Of a stretch of 50,862 nt of DNA, positions 32,589-44,143 are shown one piece after another. This DNA comes from Methyloprofundus sp. GTDB lineage: Bacteria; Pseudomonadota; Gammaproteobacteria; Methylococcales; Methylomonadaceae. Under the pieces are notes generated by a model. That model was not told where the DNA came from and did not search any database. It worked only from the letters and a program-made list of their open reading frames with translations. The DNA is taken from NCBI GenBank assembly GCA_014859465.1, contig JACUUF010000013.1, positions 1 through 50,862 of the forward strand, read 5' to 3'. The position numbers and the translations under genes were made by a program. How positions within the stretch are numbered: position 1 is the first letter of the stretch; each line of letters starts with the position of its first letter.

Positions 32589-34202
32589 ATGTCTGCTGTA
32601 ACAGCTGAGCATAAACATGATGATCATCACGATCATGGACCTGAAAAAGGTCTTCTAAGGTGGATAATTACCACTAACCATAAAGATATTGGCACGCTTT
32701 ATTTATTATTTGCGTTAGCGATGTTTTTTGTGGGTGGCCTAATGGCATTAGTTATTCGTGCTGAATTATTTGAGCCGGGTATGCAGTTTGTTAGCCCACA
32801 GTTCTTTAACTCAATGACCACCATGCATGCGTTAGTCATGGTATTTGGTGCGGTAATGCCTGCTTTTGTTGGTTTTGCTAACTGGCAAATCCCTTTAATG
32901 ATTGGCGCGCCTGATATGGCATTGCCTCGTATGAATAATATGAGTTTTTGGTTATTAGTGGCTGGGGTACTTTTATTAGCGAGTACTTTCTTTATGGAAG
33001 GTGGTGCGCCAGCATCAGGTTGGACTTTATATCCACCGTTGGTATTGCAAACAGGTGCCGCTTTGCCTTTTGCTATTTTTTCGGTGCATTTATTAGGTAT
33101 CTCATCAATTATGGGCGCGATTAATATTATCGCGACTATTTTTAATATGCGTGCCCCTAAAATGACATTGATGAAAATGCCATTATTCGTTTGGACTTGG
33201 TTAATTACCGCTTTCTTACTGATTGCAATTATGCCAGTTTTTGCCGGTGCGGTAACGATGCTATTGACGGATCGTTTCTTTGATACCAGCTTTTTCAATG
33301 CGGCGGGTGGCGGTGATCCTGTGCTGTATCAACATATTTTCTGGTTCTTCGGGCATCCAGAAGTTTATGTAATGATTCTGCCAACATTTGGCATAGCTTC
33401 AACGATTATTCCTGTCTTTGCACGTAAGCCATTATTTGGTTACAGCTCTATGGTTTATGCGACGGCTGCGATTGCATTTTTGTCATTCATTGTTTGGGCG
33501 CATCACATGTTCACTGTGGGTATGCCTATTGCAGGTGAGTTGTACTTTATGTATGCAACGATGTTAATTGCGATTCCTACAGGCGTGAAAGTGTTTAACT
33601 GGACCGCAACTATGTGGCAGGGATCAATGACTTTTGAAGCTCCCATGTTGTTTTCAATTGCTTTCGTAGTATTGTTCACTATGGGCGGATTTACTGGATT
33701 AATGATGTCTTTGGCACCTATTGATTTTCAGTATCATGATACTTACTTTATCGTCGCGCATTTTCATTATACTTTAGTACCTGCTTCAGTTTTTATCTTG
33801 ATGGCGGGTGGTTATTTCTGGATCCCTAAATGGACTGGGAATATGTATGATGAAAAATTAGCTAGATTACATTTTTGGTTATCAGCTGTTTCAGTAAATA
33901 TTTTATTTTTCCCTCAGCATTTCTTAGGGTTAGCTGGTATGCCACGACGTATTCCTGATTATGCCGTGCAATTTGCTGATTGGAATATGGTATCTAGTGT
34001 TGGTGCATTTATTTTCGGTTTTAGCCAGTTATTATTTGTCTATATAATGTATAAAACTGTTAAAGGTGGTACGGGCGAGAAAGTGTCTGATGAAGTATGG
34101 GAAGATGCTCATAAGCATGGTTTGGAATGGACGTTGCCTTCTCCATTGCCATACCACACCTTCAGCACTCCTCCAGATAAAATCCCAACGGAACATTTCT
34201 GA
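32589..34202 (+). CDS. ctaD: cytochrome c oxidase subunit I (aa3 type)
   Basis: The 537-residue catalytic subunit that reduces O2 to water and pumps protons. It has twelve membrane spans. Heme a ligands are H80 and H393; H391 binds heme a3; CuB ligands are H256, H305 and H306, with Y260 (GHPEVY) as the cross-linked tyrosine. The GHPEVY and [13 protein letters not shown] blocks fit A-type oxidases. A His/Asp-rich N-terminus ([10 protein letters not shown]) precedes the first helix, a feature seen in other proteobacterial CtaD proteins. It follows coxB by 56 bases. Confidence 0.97.
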
Positions 34203-36219: not shown

Positions 36220-36963
36220 ATGAAACTGAATTTGTTTAACTATACCTGCAAAATTAACTTTATTCCTTTTATAGTTTTTATCGCGGTATTAGCTGTTTTG
36301 CTGCGTCTTGGTTTTTGGCAGTTAGCTAGAGCGGATATTAAGCGTGCATATTTGGCGACGCAACAAACACAAAGCTTAATGCCCCCCGTTGCCCTTACTG
36401 AGCTTTTAGCGCTTGGTGCGGATTTGAGATATAGGCAGGTGCAATTGGTGGGGCGTTATGATGTAGCGCATCAATTCTTAGTCGATAATCAAATACTAGA
36501 GGGTAAGGTCGGGGCATTTGTTTTGACCCCTTTTATATTGGCAGGTAATAATACGCTGGTTTTGGTTAATCGTGGTTGGGTAGCCATGAGTAAAGGCGCA
36601 CAGCAGTTACCTGATATTGATTTTAAACCCGCTTCTGGTGAGTTAGTGCTAAACGGTATGCTCAATGACTTTCCTGGAGTTGGTCTGGTTTTGGCGGGGG
36701 CTGACGAGCCTAGCGATTCATGGCCGTCAGTTGTGCAAATAATCAATAATGCCAAGATTGCAAGCAAACTTAATCAGCCTATTTTTGATTTTCAGGTGCA
36801 ATTATTGGCTGATCAGCCGAATGGTTATACTAGAAATTGGCAGATAAATAGGCGTATGCCGCCAGAAAAACATATTGCTTATGCAGTGCAATGGTTTGCT
36901 TTGGCAATTACATTAATATTATTAATACTTTGGATAAGTTGTAAAAAAAATAAAGATGATTAA
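36220..36963 (+). CDS. SURF1-family cytochrome oxidase assembly protein
   Basis: A 247-residue protein with one membrane helix at each end (about 14-33 and 222-241) and a periplasmic domain between, the standard SURF1 layout. It assists heme a insertion into subunit I. Family blocks include LGFWQLARADIK, DLRYRQVQLVGRYD and LVNRGWVAM. It overlaps the next gene by 8 bases and stands upstream of heme A synthase, consistent with a heme a hand-over module. Confidence 0.92.
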   Translation: MKLNLFNYTCKINFIPFIVFIAVLAVLLRLGFWQLARADIKRAYLATQQTQSLMPPVALTELLALGADLRYRQVQLVGRYDVAHQFLVDNQILEGKVGAFVLTPFILAGNNTLVLVNRGWVAMSKGAQQLPDIDFKPASGELVLNGMLNDFPGVGLVLAGADEPSDSWPSVVQIINNAKIASKLNQPIFDFQVQLLADQPNGYTRNWQINRRMPPEKHIAYAVQWFALAITLILLILWISCKKNKDD

Positions 36964-37552
36964 TCAACAAAAACACAATCAGCGCACGATTATTATTTTA
37001 GCGTTAATGACCGCTATTCCTTTCTCAATTGCGTGGTATTTAACAAAAAATCCTGATTTTCAGCCTATGGCAACAAATAAAGGTGAGCTAATTGTTCCTG
37101 TGATAACAACCGAAAGGAGTGACTTGCTCGGGGTCGATGATTTTTCTGTGAAAAATATTAAAGAGCTTGAAGGGCATTGGGTTATTTTAAATATTATTCC
37201 TAATAAAGACTGTCATCAGCTTTGTATTGATACGATTCATGCAACTAAGCAATTACGCTTAATGCTTAATAAAGATTTGCCTCGTGTTAGACGTGCTGTC
37301 ATTTTAGTGCAGGGTAGCCAAGAGGAAAGTTTTCAGCCGTGGTGGGATGCGGATGATCGATTATTAAAGGTTAAACCTAGCCCGGCATTACTGGAGAAAA
37401 TTAAGCAAAAAATGACCATAGAACTTACTGATGGAATGATAATATTAATGGATCCGCTAGGTAATTTGATGATGCAATATAAATCAGGTTTCGATCCTTA
37501 TGCTATTAAGAGTGATTTGACAAAATTACTTAGAATTTCTCAAATTGGGTAA
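36956..37552 (+). CDS. SCO-like membrane-anchored thioredoxin-fold protein
   Basis: A 198-residue protein with an N-terminal anchor (about 11-29) and a thioredoxin-like periplasmic domain. The strand GHWVILNIIP is followed by C86-H-Q-L-C90, a CxxxC like the copper site of SCO proteins rather than the CxxC of thioredoxins. The late block LTDGMIILMDPLGNLMMQYK resembles the SCO end with its fold-closing strand, but the conserved copper-binding His is not obvious. A gene of this type sits between surf1 and ctaA in many pseudomonads without an assigned function. Copper delivery or disulfide reduction for CuA is plausible inference. Confidence 0.7.
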   Translation: MINQQKHNQRTIIILALMTAIPFSIAWYLTKNPDFQPMATNKGELIVPVITTERSDLLGVDDFSVKNIKELEGHWVILNIIPNKDCHQLCIDTIHATKQLRLMLNKDLPRVRRAVILVQGSQEESFQPWWDADDRLLKVKPSPALLEKIKQKMTIELTDGMIILMDPLGNLMMQYKSGFDPYAIKSDLTKLLRISQIG

Positions 37553-37558
37553 GTAGGT

Positions 37559-39526
37559 ATGTTTAGAGTTTTTACTGTTTTAGTGGGTTTTTTTATTTTA
37601 TTGCTTGCTGGTACTGGCGCATATCAGCGTCTTATGCCGTTTGATGGTGGCTCCTGTACAGAGCTTTCAAGTTGTTATACACAAATAGTGCAAATACTTA
37701 GTCAGCCAGTAATTGAGAGTAATCAATTTATTGGTTTAATGCATTCGTTTGGTGCTTTGGCGCTTGTTGTTTTGCTGGTTATGATGTTGTTGAGTAGTTT
37801 GTGGCTAAAAAGTGCGCGTTTGAGCTCTGTGATTTACATAGTGGCTTTAATGGGCTTAGTAAGTTCGCAAGTTGCATTGGGCTTGCATTCGAGCTGGTTG
37901 GGTACTGAGGCCCTTAATCAGTTAGCTCATTACTTATTGAGTGTGCTTGCCTTGTGTGTGGTTGTGCATATTTATTTGCATAGTAAAGCAGGCTACGTAA
38001 AACGTAATGATGGTACTAAATCATGGCTTATTTCTAGTGCTATTGTGGCTCTGGGCTTGCAGTTATTATTGGGTGCTTGGCTTGCAGCAAATCATGCGGG
38101 TTTAGTTTGCGGTGGATTTCCTCAGTGTTTAAACTCGTGGTGGCCGCAAGCAAACTACCTAACTGGGTTTAACTTTTTAGCCCCTTTATCTTTTGATGCA
38201 AAAATCGCGGTGCACTGGGTGCATCGTATTTTTTCAATTATTGTTTTTATTAGTTTAACGGGATTAATGCTATCTGCCACTAGCAGTCGTATTAAATCGG
38301 TACGTTGGGCTGGTGTCGCAATAAGTTTGTTATTACTGATTCAGTTTGCTAGTGGGGTTGTGCTTGTTAAGCTATCGATGCCTGTATGGGGTGTCGTGGT
38401 ACATGGTCTTGCGGCTATGATTTTGATGATACCTTTATTGCTAATTAGGTTTCATGCAAAATATAAAGCAGTAGATGACTTTCAAGTGACTTTACCGGCA
38501 GAAGATTTTGCAGTTTTTGAGGGGCTAAGGGAAGCCGAGCAATCAGCACTTACTGTTAAAGATGAAGTGCAAATACTTGCTCCTGAGCTAGTTGAGCCTG
38601 AGTCTTTATATTTGCGTTTAAAGTCACAGCTTGGAAAAACGCGTACAGGTTTAGGTGCCGCGTTATCGGTGGTAACCTTTGCGAATCGCAAAATTGACCA
38701 AGACTTGCTGGAAGAAATAGAGACCAGTTTATTAATGGCTGATGTGGGCATGGATGTGACCACGGACATTATTGCTAAATTGGAGCAGAATGTTGAAAAA
38801 CATCAGTTGCAGGATGTTAATGCCTTGTCTGGGCTGTTAAAGCAGCAGTTATTGGAATTATTAGAGCCAGTGAGTCAGCCTTTGGTTATACCTGAAAAAA
38901 AAGGTCCTTACGTGATTTTAGTTGTCGGTGTTAATGGCGCTGGCAAGACAACAACGATTGGTAAGCTGGCGCAAAGATTACAGCAGCAAGGGCATAGCGT
39001 TATGTTGGCCGCTGGCGATACCTTTAGAGCGGCAGCCGTTGAGCAATTACAGGTTTGGGGTGAGCGCAATAAAATTCATGTTGTAGCGCAGCATACAGGT
39101 GCAGATTCGGCATCGGTTATTTTTGATGCGGTACAGTCTGCGCAAGCAAAAGGTATTGATGTGTTGATTGCTGATACGGCGGGTCGTTTGCACACCAAAT
39201 CAAATTTGATGGAAGAGTTGAAGAAAATTAAACGCATTATAGGTAAGCTGGATGAAACTGCTCCTCATGAAGTGTTATTGGTTTTGGATGCGGGGACAGG
39301 ACAAAATGCACTGTCACAAGCGGAACATTTTAACAAAGCAGTTGAGTTGACTGGCATTGCCCTAACTAAATTAGATGGTACAGCAAAAGGCGGGATTATT
39401 TTCGCTTTAGCAAAACAAGTCGGCGTGCCTATCCGTTTTCTGGGGGTGGGTGAAGGGATTAATGATTTGCAGGATTTTAATGCGAAGCATTTTATTGATG
39501 CCCTGTTTAACCAGGATAAAGACTAG
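37559..39526 (+). CDS. ctaA-ftsY: fusion of heme A synthase (CtaA/COX15) and signal recognition particle receptor FtsY
   Basis: A single 655-residue ORF. Residues 1-298 are a complete CtaA: eight membrane spans with H62, H124, H219/H222 and H282 at the heme-ligand positions and loop cysteine pairs C33/C39 and C184/C190. Residues 299-345 form an acidic linker resembling a short FtsY A domain. Residues 346-655 are the full FtsY NG GTPase: P-loop G457-VNGAGKT464, DTFRAAA 487-493, DTAGR 539-543 and TKLDG 603-607. No stop or ATG separates the halves; an internal GTG at 38486 (V310) could start a separate FtsY but has no ribosome binding site. ctaA belongs to the upstream cox genes, and ftsY to ftsE-ftsX downstream. 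One polytopic anchor for the SRP receptor is the likely result. Confidence 0.9.
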   Translation: MFRVFTVLVGFFILLLAGTGAYQRLMPFDGGSCTELSSCYTQIVQILSQPVIESNQFIGLMHSFGALALVVLLVMMLLSSLWLKSARLSSVIYIVALMGLVSSQVALGLHSSWLGTEALNQLAHYLLSVLALCVVVHIYLHSKAGYVKRNDGTKSWLISSAIVALGLQLLLGAWLAANHAGLVCGGFPQCLNSWWPQANYLTGFNFLAPLSFDAKIAVHWVHRIFSIIVFISLTGLMLSATSSRIKSVRWAGVAISLLLLIQFASGVVLVKLSMPVWGVVVHGLAAMILMIPLLLIRFHAKYKAVDDFQVTLPAEDFAVFEGLREAEQSALTVKDEVQILAPELVEPESLYLRLKSQLGKTRTGLGAALSVVTFANRKIDQDLLEEIETSLLMADVGMDVTTDIIAKLEQNVEKHQLQDVNALSGLLKQQLLELLEPVSQPLVIPEKKGPYVILVVGVNGAGKTTTIGKLAQRLQQQGHSVMLAAGDTFRAAAVEQLQVWGERNKIHVVAQHTGADSASVIFDAVQSAQAKGIDVLIADTAGRLHTKSNLMEELKKIKRIIGKLDETAPHEVLLVLDAGTGQNALSQAEHFNKAVELTGIALTKLDGTAKGGIIFALAKQVGVPIRFLGVGEGINDLQDFNAKHFIDALFNQDKD

Positions 39527-39532
39527 TCTGTG

Positions 39533-40195
39533 ATGTTGACTTTTGATCATGTTTTTAAGCGTTATGCGGATGCAGGAGATACTTTAATTGATCTTAGTTT
39601 TCATCTTGATAAAGGTGAAATGGTATTTCTTACGGGGCATTCGGGGGCAGGAAAAAGTACCTTACTTAAATTAGTGGCGATTATTGAGCGTTGCACACGA
39701 GGCCAGATAATGGTTGATGGGCAAAATATTTGTCGTATGCATGATAGGCAAATTCCCTATCTACGGCGTAAGTTAGGCTTGATTTTTCAGGATTATAAAC
39801 TGCTCTTTGAGCGCACTGTTTTTGATAATGTTGCGCTACCTTTAATTGTTGCGGGTGTCGGTCGGCATGAGGTGGCGAGACGCGTCCGTGCGGCACTTGA
39901 TAAAGTGGGTTTGTTGGCTAAAGAAAATAAATTTCCTTTGGCTTTATCGGGTGGAGAGCAGCAGCGCATTGGTATTGCACGAGCTGTTGTGAATAAACCT
40001 GCGTTAATCTTGGCTGATGAGCCTACAGGAAACTTAGATCCGCAGTTATCAGCAGAAATTATGCATTTATTTGAGCAGTTTAAACAAGTGGGTGTGACGG
40101 TATTAATTGCCTCGCATGATATTGAATTAGTGACAAAATTGGATCATAGAGTTTTGCAATTGGATCATGGCGCGCTTATTAAGTATCAATTATGA
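39533..40195 (+). CDS. ftsE: cell-division ABC transporter ATPase FtsE
   Basis: A 220-residue ATPase that, with FtsX, activates periplasmic murein hydrolases at the septum. Walker A is GHSGAGKSTLLK, the signature LSGGEQQRIGIARA and Walker B LILADEPTGNLD. The ATG at 39533 is preferred over the adjacent GTG at 39530. It follows the ctaA-ftsY stop by six bases and overlaps ftsX by four, keeping the classical ftsY-ftsE-ftsX order. Confidence 0.96.
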   Translation: MLTFDHVFKRYADAGDTLIDLSFHLDKGEMVFLTGHSGAGKSTLLKLVAIIERCTRGQIMVDGQNICRMHDRQIPYLRRKLGLIFQDYKLLFERTVFDNVALPLIVAGVGRHEVARRVRAALDKVGLLAKENKFPLALSGGEQQRIGIARAVVNKPALILADEPTGNLDPQLSAEIMHLFEQFKQVGVTVLIASHDIELVTKLDHRVLQLDHGALIKYQL

Positions 40196-41190
40196 AGTCA
40201 GCTAGAAAGAAGTCTATAGAGCCGCCACGGCAAGTTAAGCCAGAAGGTTACCAAAGGCGTAAGCCTTCTGGCTGGCTAAGTATTAATTTGCTATTGCATA
40301 GGGAGGCCTTAGGTGCGAGTTTGCGTCGATTGTTGTTAGCTCCTTTTACTTCGGCTATGGCTATTATAGTTATGGCTATTGCGCTGTCTTTGGCAGGCAG
40401 TTTTTATGTTTTAGTGAATAATGCTCAGCAATTAGTCGATAACTTGCACACAGGCAAGCAGTTTTCCTTGTTTTTACATGAACGTATTTCTGATAAGCAA
40501 GCAGCCAATTTGGCGCAACGACTACAGGCTTATCCAGGAGTGGCTAATGTTGTGCTAATTTCTAAGCAGCAAGCTTTAGCAGAATTTCAGCAATACAGTG
40601 GCTTTGGTGCTGCGCTGAATGCACTGGAAAGTAACCCATTACCGGCGGTCATTCAGGTTTTTCCTATTCAAGAGATAACTGAAACATACCAACTAACGCA
40701 ACTGTTGGAGCAAGCAAAAAATGAACAAGAAGTTGATTTTGCGCAAATTGATATGGATTGGGTGGCACGTTTACAGTCAATTATGCGCATAGCAAATCAA
40801 GTGGTCATGTTACTATCTAGCTTGTTAGCTGTTGCTGTGATTTTTATTACTGGAAATACTATACGCTTAGAGTTGCAAACACGTAGAGATGAGGTTGTCG
40901 TAGAAAAATTAGTAGGGGCAACAAATGCATTTATATGTCTGCCTTTTCTGTATAGTGGTTTTTGGTTTGGCTTTATAGCAGGGTGTTTTGCTTGGTGCAT
41001 TATTGCCATGATGTTATTTATGGTTAGTTCTCCAATTGCCCATTTATCTCTGCTTTATCAGAGTCAATTTCAATTGCATTTTATGAATTTATTGGAATCA
41101 GTGGGTTTGATTTTCGGTGCTTCAGCGCTCGGAGTATTGGGTGCCTCAGCAATAGTGAGTCACCAACTTAGATTATTAAAACCAGAGTAG
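40192..41190 (+). CDS. ftsX: cell-division protein FtsX
   Basis: A 332-residue membrane partner of FtsE. A long basic cytoplasmic N-terminus (1-50) precedes four membrane helices (about 55-80, 205-225, 245-275 and 295-318), with a periplasmic domain of about 115 residues after the first. Blocks LQAYPGVANVVLISKQQALA and NTIRLELQTRRDEVVVEKLVGA are characteristic. It ends the ftsE-ftsX unit; rpoH, which often follows, is not here and hfq begins instead. Confidence 0.94.
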   Translation: MKSARKKSIEPPRQVKPEGYQRRKPSGWLSINLLLHREALGASLRRLLLAPFTSAMAIIVMAIALSLAGSFYVLVNNAQQLVDNLHTGKQFSLFLHERISDKQAANLAQRLQAYPGVANVVLISKQQALAEFQQYSGFGAALNALESNPLPAVIQVFPIQEITETYQLTQLLEQAKNEQEVDFAQIDMDWVARLQSIMRIANQVVMLLSSLLAVAVIFITGNTIRLELQTRRDEVVVEKLVGATNAFICLPFLYSGFWFGFIAGCFAWCIIAMMLFMVSSPIAHLSLLYQSQFQLHFMNLLESVGLIFGASALGVLGASAIVSHQLRLLKPE

Positions 41191-41308
41191 GGCTTGATTT
41201 TTAACTTTGCGTACCTATATCTTGTAAATCGGCTTAATTATCGGTAAGGTATCCGAATATGCTTTGAGCTGATTGCAGAATAATAAAAATAACAATAGGG
41301 AGATATGT

Positions 41309-41545
41309 ATGTCAAAAAGCCAAAATTTGCAGGATACTTTTTTGAATGCGCTAAGAAAAGAACACACGCCAGTATCAATTTTTTTAGTTAATGGCATTAA
41401 ATTACAAGGTCGTGTTGATTCATTTGATCAATATGTCATTATGCTAAAAAATACAATGTCACAAATGGTATATAAGCATGCGATTTCTACGATTGTGCCC
41501 GGTAAGCCAGTCACTATGATTAATAAAGAGAGCGACATTGAATGA
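41309..41545 (+). CDS. hfq: RNA chaperone Hfq
   Basis: A 78-residue Sm-like hexameric protein that pairs small RNAs with mRNAs. The start is the ATG at 41309 with GGGAG six bases ahead; an in-frame CTG-region upstream to 41273 is not conserved. Sm1 ([19 protein letters not shown]) and Sm2 ([12 protein letters not shown]) are intact, and the Q in [12 protein letters not shown] and the KHA motif form the RNA-binding faces. The C-terminal tail is very short. It leads the hfq-hflX-hflK-hflC run. Confidence 0.97.
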
Positions 41546-41574
41546 ATTAAAAGTATCGGTTAAGGAGATAGAGG

Positions 41575-42840
41575 TTGTTTGATCGTCCTGAATCCGGAGA
41601 AAGAGCTGTCCTAGTACATATTACGTTGCGTGACGGACAAGAAGATTTAAATGAATTAAAAGAATTAGCGAGTTCAGCAGGTGCTGAAGTCGTTCATGTA
41701 CTTACTGGTTCTAGGAGTTATCCTGACCCAAAATATTTTATTGGTTCTGGAAAGCTAGATGAATTAAGAGCTATTATCGAAGCGACAGAAGCAGATCTTG
41801 TCATTTTCAATCATGTTTTAACACCTAGCCAAGAACGTAATCTTGAAGCTGCTTTAGAGTTTCGAGTCGTAGATCGTAATGGTTTAATTCTTGATATTTT
41901 TGCCTTGCGGGCAAAAACTTATGATGGCAAGTTGCAAGTTGAATTAGCACAATTAAATCACTTATCTTCACGTTTAACGGGGGGCTGGACGCATTTAGAT
42001 CGCCAAAAAGGCGGTATAGGTATGCGTGGGACAGGTGAGACACAGCTAGAAGATGATAGACGTCAGGTTGGCGCACGTATAAAATTAGTGCAAAGCCGAT
42101 TAGAAAAAGTAGTCAAGCAACGCCACCAAGGGCGAGTTAGGCGTAAACGCTCTGATACGCCTAGCGTGTCTTTAGTTGGCTATACTAATGCAGGTAAGTC
42201 GACTTTATTTAATCGTTTAACCGGCGCAGATATTTATGTCGCAAACCAATTGTTTGCTACCCTTGACCCTACTATGCGTCGTTGTCGATTAGCGAACAAT
42301 TCAGAGATTGTTTTAGCCGATACTGTGGGTTTTATTCGTCATCTACCGCATGAATTAGTCGCGGCTTTTAAGTCAACACTACAAGAAGCGGCAGATGCTG
42401 ACTTGTTGTTGCATGTCATTGATGCCAATGACGAGTATCGTAATGAAACGATTTATGAAGTAAATCGTGTTTTGAAGGATATAGGCGCAGATAAGAGTCC
42501 TCAGTTAGAGGTCTTTAATAAAATTGATTTACTAGATGATTTTGCGCCACGAATAGATAGAAATGATCAAGGTAAGCCTGTACGAGTCTGGTTGTCAGCA
42601 CAAACAGGGGCCGGAATGGATTTGCTGTTACAGGCCTTGGCTGAAATATTTTCTGCAACAAGAGTAAGAAGGTTATGCCATCTGTTATCTAGTCAAGGTG
42701 GTGTGCGTTCGCAATTGTTCTCAGTAGCCAATATTTTGCAAGAAGATTGTACCGAAGAAGGTGGTTGGGACTTATTAGTGGAAATTGATCAGCAGTATTT
42801 AGGTGTTTTACGCGAGGTTGAAACAGAAGAAATTGTGTAA
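41575..42840 (+). CDS. hflX: ribosome-splitting GTPase HflX
   Basis: A 421-residue GTPase that splits stalled 70S ribosomes under stress. It starts with TTG, supported by GGAG upstream and the conserved N-terminus FDRPESGERAVLVHI. The HflX domain holds ADLVIFNHVLTPSQERNLE and GGIGMRGTGETQLE. The G domain has P-loop GYTNAGKSTLFN, DTVGFIRHLPH and NKIDLLDD. It follows hfq by 29 bases. Confidence 0.96.
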   Translation: MFDRPESGERAVLVHITLRDGQEDLNELKELASSAGAEVVHVLTGSRSYPDPKYFIGSGKLDELRAIIEATEADLVIFNHVLTPSQERNLEAALEFRVVDRNGLILDIFALRAKTYDGKLQVELAQLNHLSSRLTGGWTHLDRQKGGIGMRGTGETQLEDDRRQVGARIKLVQSRLEKVVKQRHQGRVRRKRSDTPSVSLVGYTNAGKSTLFNRLTGADIYVANQLFATLDPTMRRCRLANNSEIVLADTVGFIRHLPHELVAAFKSTLQEAADADLLLHVIDANDEYRNETIYEVNRVLKDIGADKSPQLEVFNKIDLLDDFAPRIDRNDQGKPVRVWLSAQTGAGMDLLLQALAEIFSATRVRRLCHLLSSQGGVRSQLFSVANILQEDCTEEGGWDLLVEIDQQYLGVLREVETEEIV

Positions 42841-42940
42841 TTATGTATTTTTTAGGATAATTACCAAGTAAAATCATAAGAATTACATATTTTTATAAAT
42901 TCTCATTAATTTTTTTGCTGTACAAATGTGGAGTTAGCAA

Positions 42941-44143
42941 ATGTCTTGGAATGAACCAGGCGGTGATAAGAAGAAAGACCCGTGGAGTGGTCGCAACGAG
43001 GACAATGGTCCTCCTGATTTAGATGAGGCGATTCGTTCGCTGCAAGATAAATTAGGCGGCTTATTTGGCGGCAATAGAGGGGGCGGTAATAATAATGAAA
43101 TATCACCTCCTTCACTAAAAGGTCTTGGATTTTTAGCGCTCGGTGCTGTTGCTCTTTGGGGCGCAAGTGGCTTTTATATCGTTGATGAAGGAAATCGTGG
43201 CGTTGAATTGCGTTTTGGTAAGTATATCGCGACAACTCAGCCGGGTTTGAACTGGCGCTTACCTTCGCCTATTGAAACAGTAGAGATTGTTAACGTTTCT
43301 CAGCAGCGATTTTTAGAGGTTGGTTATCGCTCTAGTGGTGGTCGTACCGCTGAGGGACAAGGTTCGGTAGCAAAAGAAGCGCTAATGTTAACTAAAGATG
43401 AAAATATAGTTGATGTGCGTTTAGCGGTTCAATATCAAGTTAATGATGCTAAAAAGTATTTGTTTAATATCTTAAATCAAACAGCGACATTAAAGCAGGT
43501 TACGGAAAGTGTGGAACGTGGTGTGATCGGAGGTAATACTATGGACTTCGTACTAACTGAAGGCCGTAGTCAGATTGTTGCTGATATTAAGGCGGAAATT
43601 CAGCAGGTAATGGATTCCTATGATTCTGGTATTCAAATTGCAAGTGTCAACTTACAAGATGCCCAGCCACCTGAACAAGTACAAAATGCTTTTGAAGATG
43701 CGATTAAAGCGCGTGAAGATAAGCAGCGATTAATTAATGAAGCTGAAGCTTACGCAAATGATGTCGTACCTAAGGCGCGTGGTGCTGCAGCAAGACTAAC
43801 GCAACAATCAGAAGGTTATAAATCACGTATCATTTCCGCTGCAGAAGGGGATGTGAGTCGTTTTAGGCAGATTTTAACTGAGTATAAAAAAGCGCCAGAA
43901 GTGACTCGTAAGCGTATTTATTTAGATGCCATGGAGTCCGTCATGAGTGGTACTGATACAGTGATGGTCGATGTTAAGGGGGGTAATAATTTAATGTATT
44001 TGCCTTTAGATAAGCTAGCAGCTAAATCACAAGCTAATATAAGTGATGGTTACGTGCAAACGGCACCTTCAGCTACGCAAACATATACGACAACCAATAC
44101 GGCGCGACCTTCAGCGCGTGGACGTACAGAGAGAGGGCGCTAA
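42941..44143 (+). CDS. hflK: FtsH-protease modulator HflK
   Basis: A 400-residue SPFH/band-7 protein that, with HflC, forms a large membrane cage around FtsH. A Gly/Asn-rich cytoplasmic N-terminus (about 1-55) precedes a single membrane helix (about 63-83), then the SPFH domain (NRGVELRFGKYIATTQPGLN onwards) and a long helical region rich in Glu/Ala. The C-terminal tail is low-complexity Thr/Arg-rich. It ends one base before the hflC start. Confidence 0.95.
   Translation: MSWNEPGGDKKKDPWSGRNEDNGPPDLDEAIRSLQDKLGGLFGGNRGGGNNNEISPPSLKGLGFLALGAVALWGASGFYIVDEGNRGVELRFGKYIATTQPGLNWRLPSPIETVEIVNVSQQRFLEVGYRSSGGRTAEGQGSVAKEALMLTKDENIVDVRLAVQYQVNDAKKYLFNILNQTATLKQVTESVERGVIGGNTMDFVLTEGRSQIVADIKAEIQQVMDSYDSGIQIASVNLQDAQPPEQVQNAFEDAIKAREDKQRLINEAEAYANDVVPKARGAAARLTQQSEGYKSRIISAAEGDVSRFRQILTEYKKAPEVTRKRIYLDAMESVMSGTDTVMVDVKGGNNLMYLPLDKLAAKSQANISDGYVQTAPSATQTYTTTNTARPSARGRTERGR

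Follow-up and report, generated by a model that had tools for sequence, protein, structure and literature searches.

The DNA analysed here (the window) is an entire contig of 50,862 bases from a 4.77-Mb draft genome of 418 contigs with 7% contamination. It carries one gene in which a heme A synthase (CtaA) region is followed in frame by the SRP receptor FtsY. This gene and its neighbours are given below, with neighbour counts over the 50 fused loci of this study, some of which end at contig or fetched-region ends.

32589–34202, + strand: ctaD, aa3-type oxidase subunit I, in the cox cluster (TIGR02891, 683.6 bits)
36220–36963, + strand: SURF1, oxidase assembly (PF02104; upstream in 42 of 50 fused loci)
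36956–37552, + strand: short hypothetical protein between SURF1 and the fusion (without Pfam match; upstream in 43 of 50 fused loci)
37559–39526, + strand: ctaA-ftsY fusion gene (655 residues plus stop, ATG start, no internal stop)
39530–40195, + strand: ftsE (ABC_tran; downstream in 43 of 50 fused loci)
40192–41190, + strand: ftsX (PF18075 and PF02687; downstream in 44 of 50 fused loci)

The order SURF1, hypothetical gene, fusion, ftsE, ftsX agrees with the initial annotation, which had placed the gene at a junction of a cox cluster (upstream) and an fts cluster (ftsE-ftsX, downstream). The single unbroken reading frame with CtaA and then FtsY is likewise borne out by the ORF and by the Pfam and NCBIfam matches. 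In the window protein, Pfam COX15-CtaA was matched at residues 51–291 (78.2 bits, cut-off 29.9), SRP54_N at 375–431 and SRP54 at 450–650 (259 bits), and the NCBIfam ftsY family TIGR00064 reached 364.9 bits at residues 378–650 against a curated cut-off of 260.7. The FtsY part had been called complete, and we agree: the NG region lies over the TIGR00064 cut-off, and the P-loop, DTAGR and TKLDG motifs, which we take to be marks of FtsY, can be read in the window translation.

The same architecture, which the initial annotation had suggested seeking in relatives, turned up in 50 of 61 genomes (the window genome and 60 relatives) as a single ORF matching both domains; seven genomes have separate genes and four are undecided (in G002 the FtsY piece stops at a contig end; no FtsY was found in G003, G016 and G021). 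The seven genomes with separate ctaA and ftsY belong to families f7 and f8 (family and genus labels, f1–f8, g14 and g306, are working codes of this analysis). Across the order, 291 of 301 genomes were matched, and among the matches listed all rows span both domains; the fusion is also present in single-contig genomes (e.g., G538, G526 and G454). Matches were weak in G469, G481 and G629, and at a threshold of E 1e-60 ten of the 301 gave none, including G599 and G660, which are listed as 100% complete. No fusion outside the order was found among the matches listed for samples of 369 genomes of the class and 398 of the phylum; these reach down to about 396 bits (class) and 319 bits (phylum), so weaker distant fusions could be missed. 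Among the matches listed from open-licence literature, there was no earlier description of a CtaA-FtsY fusion. Because an AMO/pmoA-family gene is widespread in the order (the window genome and 46 of the 60 relatives, members of f7 and f8 included), its members are probably gammaproteobacterial methanotrophs.

In a tree of the FtsY NG domain, whose bootstrap is unsettled and whose root is rough, 28 fused rows lie on one side of a branch and 35 others on the other side (support 100/98). The 35 others are six sequences from f7 and f8 and 29 from other families of the class; the fragments G002 and G049 were left out. In the CtaA tree the separate f7 and f8 copies nest inside the fused ones beside G040, perhaps through a long-branch effect, and the FtsY tree was used to place the fusion instead of this ambiguous, long-branched one. 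The sequences argue for a single ancient origin of the fusion, which has been kept across families f1–f6. In five of the seven separate-gene relatives, ftsY and ctaA lie about 4–9 kb apart on opposite strands, which fits a rearrangement; the two genes of G042 and those of G049 sit on different contigs. The arrangement in G056 (f7) is ftsY-ftsE-ftsX and cyoE-ctaA-hypothetical-SURF1, about 9 kb apart on opposite strands (some names assigned by eye), from which removal of cyoE and inversion of one cluster would lead to the fused gene order. The initial annotation had raised loss of the ftsY A domain as part of a possible neutral fusion. Loss of a large A domain is not evident, as in the unfused FtsY of G056 the NG+1 helix is preceded by only some 20 residues and there is no large A domain.

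Conservation was scored in 107 full-length fusions, comprising 47 of the 50 fused genes and 60 picked from the listed order matches for varied genera and full matches; these 107 are not a random sample. Left out and inspected separately were G012, which stops at a contig end, and G024 and G030, whose regions were truncated at retrieval. Residue numbers of Bacillus subtilis CtaA were transferred through alignment to the structure 6a2j. phmmer with the CtaA half of the window protein found no match among solved structures; a profile of less decayed relatives does match 6a2j. An AlphaFold model made from four sequences (mean pLDDT 37.7) served for the helix count only, and the secondary structure of this low-confidence model predicts eight membrane helices; hydropathy gives nine segments in the window protein and eight in G040. 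The parts of the fused protein are as follows.

37559–38002, + strand: N bundle, TM1–4, residues 1–148, apparently the former heme O/catalytic half, decayed (helices from the low-confidence model; omega 0.17–0.29)
37733–37735, + strand: Gly59 at the position of the catalytic Glu57 of B. subtilis (by alignment; Glu in 42 of 107 fusions)
37742–37747, + strand: His62-Ser63 at the positions of His60 (kept) and Arg61 (lost) (by alignment)
37928–37930, + strand: His124 at the position of His123 (by alignment; His in 78 of 107 fusions)
38003–38464, + strand: C bundle, TM5–8, residues 149–302, heme b half with its site kept (omega 0.08–0.15)
38108–38128, + strand: Cys184 to Cys190, the loop 3 pair C191/C197 (107 of 107 fusions; missing in G024, outside the 107)
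38222–38227, + strand: His222-Arg223 (H216/R217), predicted heme b ligand (His in 107 of 107, Arg in 106 of 107; mapped to 6a2j)
38402–38404, + strand: His282 (H278), predicted heme b ligand (107 of 107; mapped to 6a2j)
38465–38599, + strand: acidic linker, residues 303–347 (omega 0.29–0.54)
38600–39523, + strand: FtsY NG+1 domain, residues 348–655, with N-terminal amphipathic helix (Pfam, NCBIfam; omega 0.024–0.030)

The description of CtaA as complete, with all expected residues, holds in part. The four histidines and four cysteines are present, while Glu57 of the ExxHR motif in TM2 is replaced by Gly59 and Arg61 by Ser63, and the loop motif CPDWPGC is degraded. According to PMC12808453 and PMC8239418, the N bundle of the enzyme binds heme O through H60 and H123, with E57 proposed as catalytic, and the heme b ligands are H216 and H278 of the C bundle; the window protein retains histidines (His62 and His124) at both substrate heme ligand positions. 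Of the 107 fusions, 42 retain Glu57, 69 Arg61, 75 His60 and 78 His123, and 30 have all four, while Cys191, Pro196, Cys197, His216 and His278 are kept in every one and Arg217 in 106. All seven separate CtaA retain every scored residue. On the FtsY tree, at least 19 changes are needed at Glu57, 15 at His60, 14 at Arg61 and 16 at His123, against none at His216, His278, Cys191 and Cys197 (Pro196 was not counted). The members of the window's own genus have Gly, Ala, Trp, Ser or Gln at the Glu57 position, and in three of them neither His60 nor His123 is left. PMC8239418 lists naturally occurring CtaA sequences with E57N, E57K, H60N and H123N, so decayed fusions without those residues may still be active.

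Of the sites that are invariant in the seven separate CtaA, none of the 79 in the N half but nine of the 62 in the C half, including the heme b set, stay in at least 95% of the 107 fusions. The mean site retention of the two halves is close (0.52 for the N half and 0.59 for the C half), so the contrast sits in the heme b site rather than in the whole half. All four parts of the fusion are under purifying selection in four close pairs from the window's genus (Nei–Gojobori omega 0.024–0.030 for FtsY, 0.08–0.15 for the C bundle, 0.17–0.29 for the N bundle and 0.29–0.54 for the linker). The median ratio of N-bundle to C-bundle distance is 0.75 in unfused CtaA (15 pairs), 0.85 in intact fused copies, 1.18 in decayed ones and 1.48 in the own genus (87 pairs). 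The N bundle is constrained as a scaffold would be, more loosely than the C bundle, which is the reverse of unfused CtaA. A neutral fusion, offered initially as an alternative, is unlikely given the one origin, the retention in f1–f6 and the heme b ligands that are unchanged in 107 fusions. The linker is 28–58 residues long across the 107 fusions, with a median net acidic charge of 4. In the FtsY half, the P-loop reads N[GA]xGKTTT in 97 of the 107, and four of the remaining ten, on inspection, read GKTTS; the NG+1 amphipathic helix aligns with that of E. coli FtsY (through G040).

Of the three sequences inspected separately, the contig-end fragment of G012 retains the whole heme b set. In G030 (genus g14; 5000–8600 of C52), about two N-bundle helices are missing and the whole heme b set is intact. 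The most diverged CtaA half seen is that of G024 (2500–5600 of C297), which has no Pfam COX15-CtaA match; its loop-3 cysteines and Arg217 are lost, and both heme b histidines still align.

The initial annotation had named a second intact ftsY and ctaA in the genome as evidence against its reading; a standalone CtaA was found there, and a second FtsY was not. The standalone CtaA lies at G000:C154:3222–4112 and scores 195 bits, against 77.5 for the fused copy, and ctaB is on another contig. The only two other FtsY matches in the window genome were taken as Ffh and FlhF from score and length. At least two PF02628 matches, a few of the extras being fragments, were obtained in 176 of the 181 genomes outside f7 and f8 with completeness of at least 95%; the five with a single match are G024, G599, G535, G550 and G620. 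In G013 the second CtaA is split over contigs. The standalone type keeps the first cysteine pair only, together with Glu57, His123, His216 and His278, and has Asn at His60 (51 sequences, 96% threshold), resembles a type in Table 1 of PMC8239418, and forms its own clade (16 rows, 100/100). A 702-residue ORF, L110, was considered as a second CtaA fused to CtaB and rejected, its extension having no Pfam match. By eye, the neighbours of the standalone gene in the window genome look like HDOD and YgfZ genes, with no cox genes.

No CtaA besides the fused one was detected in G040 (94% complete), G050 (85%), G620, G535 and G550 (g306, 99%). Glu57, His60, Arg61 and His123 are all retained in G040, G620, G535 and G550 and not in G050; that its sole detected CtaA is decayed either goes against a strict rule or reflects the incompleteness of this genome. 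The same quartet is intact despite a second CtaA in G023, G028, G032, G036 and G060, so the fused enzyme may still be used there. Genomes of genus g306 are 1.5–2.3 Mb, and all four fused copies have the whole active site; one of the four, G568, was outside the PF02628 search and is not among the single-CtaA genomes.

These observations (the fusion, its spread and single origin, the loss of catalytic residues and the retention of the heme b site), all read from sequence, are probably best explained if an ancient ctaA-ftsY fusion became a multispan, heme-b-bearing membrane anchor of the SRP receptor. The ancestor of f1–f6 would have joined ctaA in frame to ftsY once. Since FtsY works in vivo when a transmembrane domain tethers it (PMC2780400), CtaA could have served as an anchor from the first day; the initial suggestion that a CtaA-derived membrane domain could anchor FtsY is consistent with the membrane spans predicted in the same polypeptide as the NG domain. 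The FtsY half would have to work because no other FtsY was found in the genome, and the protein, containing the sole SRP receptor, would have to be kept. Because a standalone CtaA of another type can supply heme A, the catalytic N bundle of the fused copy may have decayed many times, own genus included, while selection would maintain the C-bundle heme b site with its two histidines and the loop-3 cysteines. We infer a pseudo-enzyme that binds heme b, has lost heme A synthesis and holds the SRP receptor permanently in the membrane through its heme-b-loaded bundle. This anchor may oligomerise as heme A synthases do; C bundles are the trimer core of the Aquifex enzyme in an excerpt of PMC7327177. 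The acidic linker and the NG+1 helix would let the GTPase reach SRP-ribosome complexes and SecYEG. The initial annotation had seen a working enzyme of oxidase cofactor synthesis in the anchor, which is not supported in this organism: its fused copy, like most of those examined, has an altered catalytic site, and its genome encodes a standalone CtaA as well. The heme may be purely structural or may act as a sensor too.

There is a real possibility, short of probable, that the CtaA half is a passive multispan tether whose heme b is kept solely for folding or insertion, with no signalling and no catalysis. This explanation overlaps with the heme-b-bearing anchor and differs only in denying the heme a role of its own. 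It is in line with the functional transmembrane-tethered FtsY described in part of PMC2780400, with the tolerance of the N bundle to the loss of about two helices in G030 and to strong divergence, and with the embedding of heme in a rigid core bundle (excerpt of PMC7327177). However, any hydrophobic segment would do as a tether, and zero heme-ligand losses in 107 fusions against 14–19 changes at the four catalytic-half residues exceed what hydrophobicity needs.

It is unlikely that the fused protein is still a heme A synthase or a helper subunit of one, making heme A alone or in mixed oligomers with standalone CtaA and supplying cofactor beside co-translational insertion of CtaD. The catalytic quartet is intact in 30 of the 107 fusions, including four of the five genomes in which only the fused CtaA was detected, SURF1 lies upstream in 42 of 50 fused loci, and such enzymes form oligomers (PMC7327177, in part); but Glu57 is lost in 65 of the 107, the own genus is substituted there, and a second CtaA is usual. 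The link to CtaD insertion, raised in the initial annotation, is not needed: the high-scoring ctaD is far from the fused gene in four f4 genomes (G039, G054, G057 and G060), and near it in G046, which also belongs to f4.

A more far-reaching version of the heme-b-bearing anchor would make the SRP receptor heme- or redox-responsive, with FtsY anchored, clustered or active only with heme b in the right redox state; we regard this as a rather speculative extension that is probably not correct. If it were true, membrane-protein insertion in methanotrophs, which form stacked membranes packed with oxidising enzymes, would be tied to heme supply or respiratory state, and the order would present a natural series from bifunctional enzyme-receptor to cytochrome-receptor.

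It is more doubtful still that the fusion is genetic only, with internal initiation or proteolysis in the linker freeing FtsY. The linker evolves faster than any other part, GTG and TTG codons in frame lie within it or close by, and the NG+1 helix is retained, which would all suit two products. Nevertheless, a Shine–Dalgarno-like sequence precedes such a codon in 20 of the 107 fusions, at differing positions, and nowhere in the window gene, by a scan that is weak in that it found one before the start of the ORF itself in only two of 107. An assembly or annotation artefact, or contamination, which a draft of 418 contigs with 7% contamination might bring to mind, is hardly credible, and assembly error was rejected, given that 50 of 61 genomes share the fusion, that genomes assembled as a single contig have it too, and that purifying selection acts on either side of the junction.

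The fused protein can be compared with several known systems. Like heme A synthase CtaA/COX15 (B. subtilis, 6a2j and 6ied), the window protein combines two four-helix bundles with four histidines and two pairs of loop cysteines; unlike B. subtilis CtaA, it is changed at the Glu57 and Arg61 positions and has a C-terminal FtsY, and a second CtaA is usual. CtaA is also joined to another protein in the CtaA-CtaB fusions of Halobacteria and others (excerpts of PMC12808453 and PMC8239418), but those partners catalyse consecutive steps of one pathway, whereas FtsY belongs to protein targeting. Membrane-tethered FtsY is known from some Gram-positives and archaea, where a transmembrane helix does the tethering, and FtsY-NG has been fused to an unrelated membrane polypeptide (Zelazny 1997, as cited in PMC2780400; both from that article). 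The fusion resembles these in having predicted membrane spans in the same polypeptide; it differs in being tethered by a naturally occurring multispan domain that derives from an enzyme, has conserved heme ligands, arose once and is spread over f1–f6 of a gammaproteobacterial order. As in bacterial FtsY (E. coli FtsY NG+1), full N and G domains and the NG+1 helix are present, the gene is single copy here and ftsE-ftsX lie downstream, but in place of the soluble N-terminal A domain of E. coli FtsY there is a CtaA-derived membrane domain, about 300 residues long.

FtsY has a central part in protein targeting, and its need to cycle off the membrane has long been argued. In most of a bacterial order, the SRP receptor in use appears to be a multispan protein that stays in the membrane permanently. 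The fusion would also be a clear natural case of an enzyme turned scaffold, in which the catalytic half decays repeatedly and one cofactor site stays fixed, and it opens to experiment the idea that co-translational insertion can be controlled by a heme site. For annotation, caution is advisable, as the names 'ctaA' and 'ftsY' can refer to a single protein in these genomes.

Two minor observations concern the flanks of the fused gene. Directly after ftsX, the window contains genes named by eye as Hfq, HflX and HflK-like (41273–44143), without rpoH between them. The hypothetical protein at 36956–37552, which looks SCO/thioredoxin-like by eye, is also present in the unfused G056.
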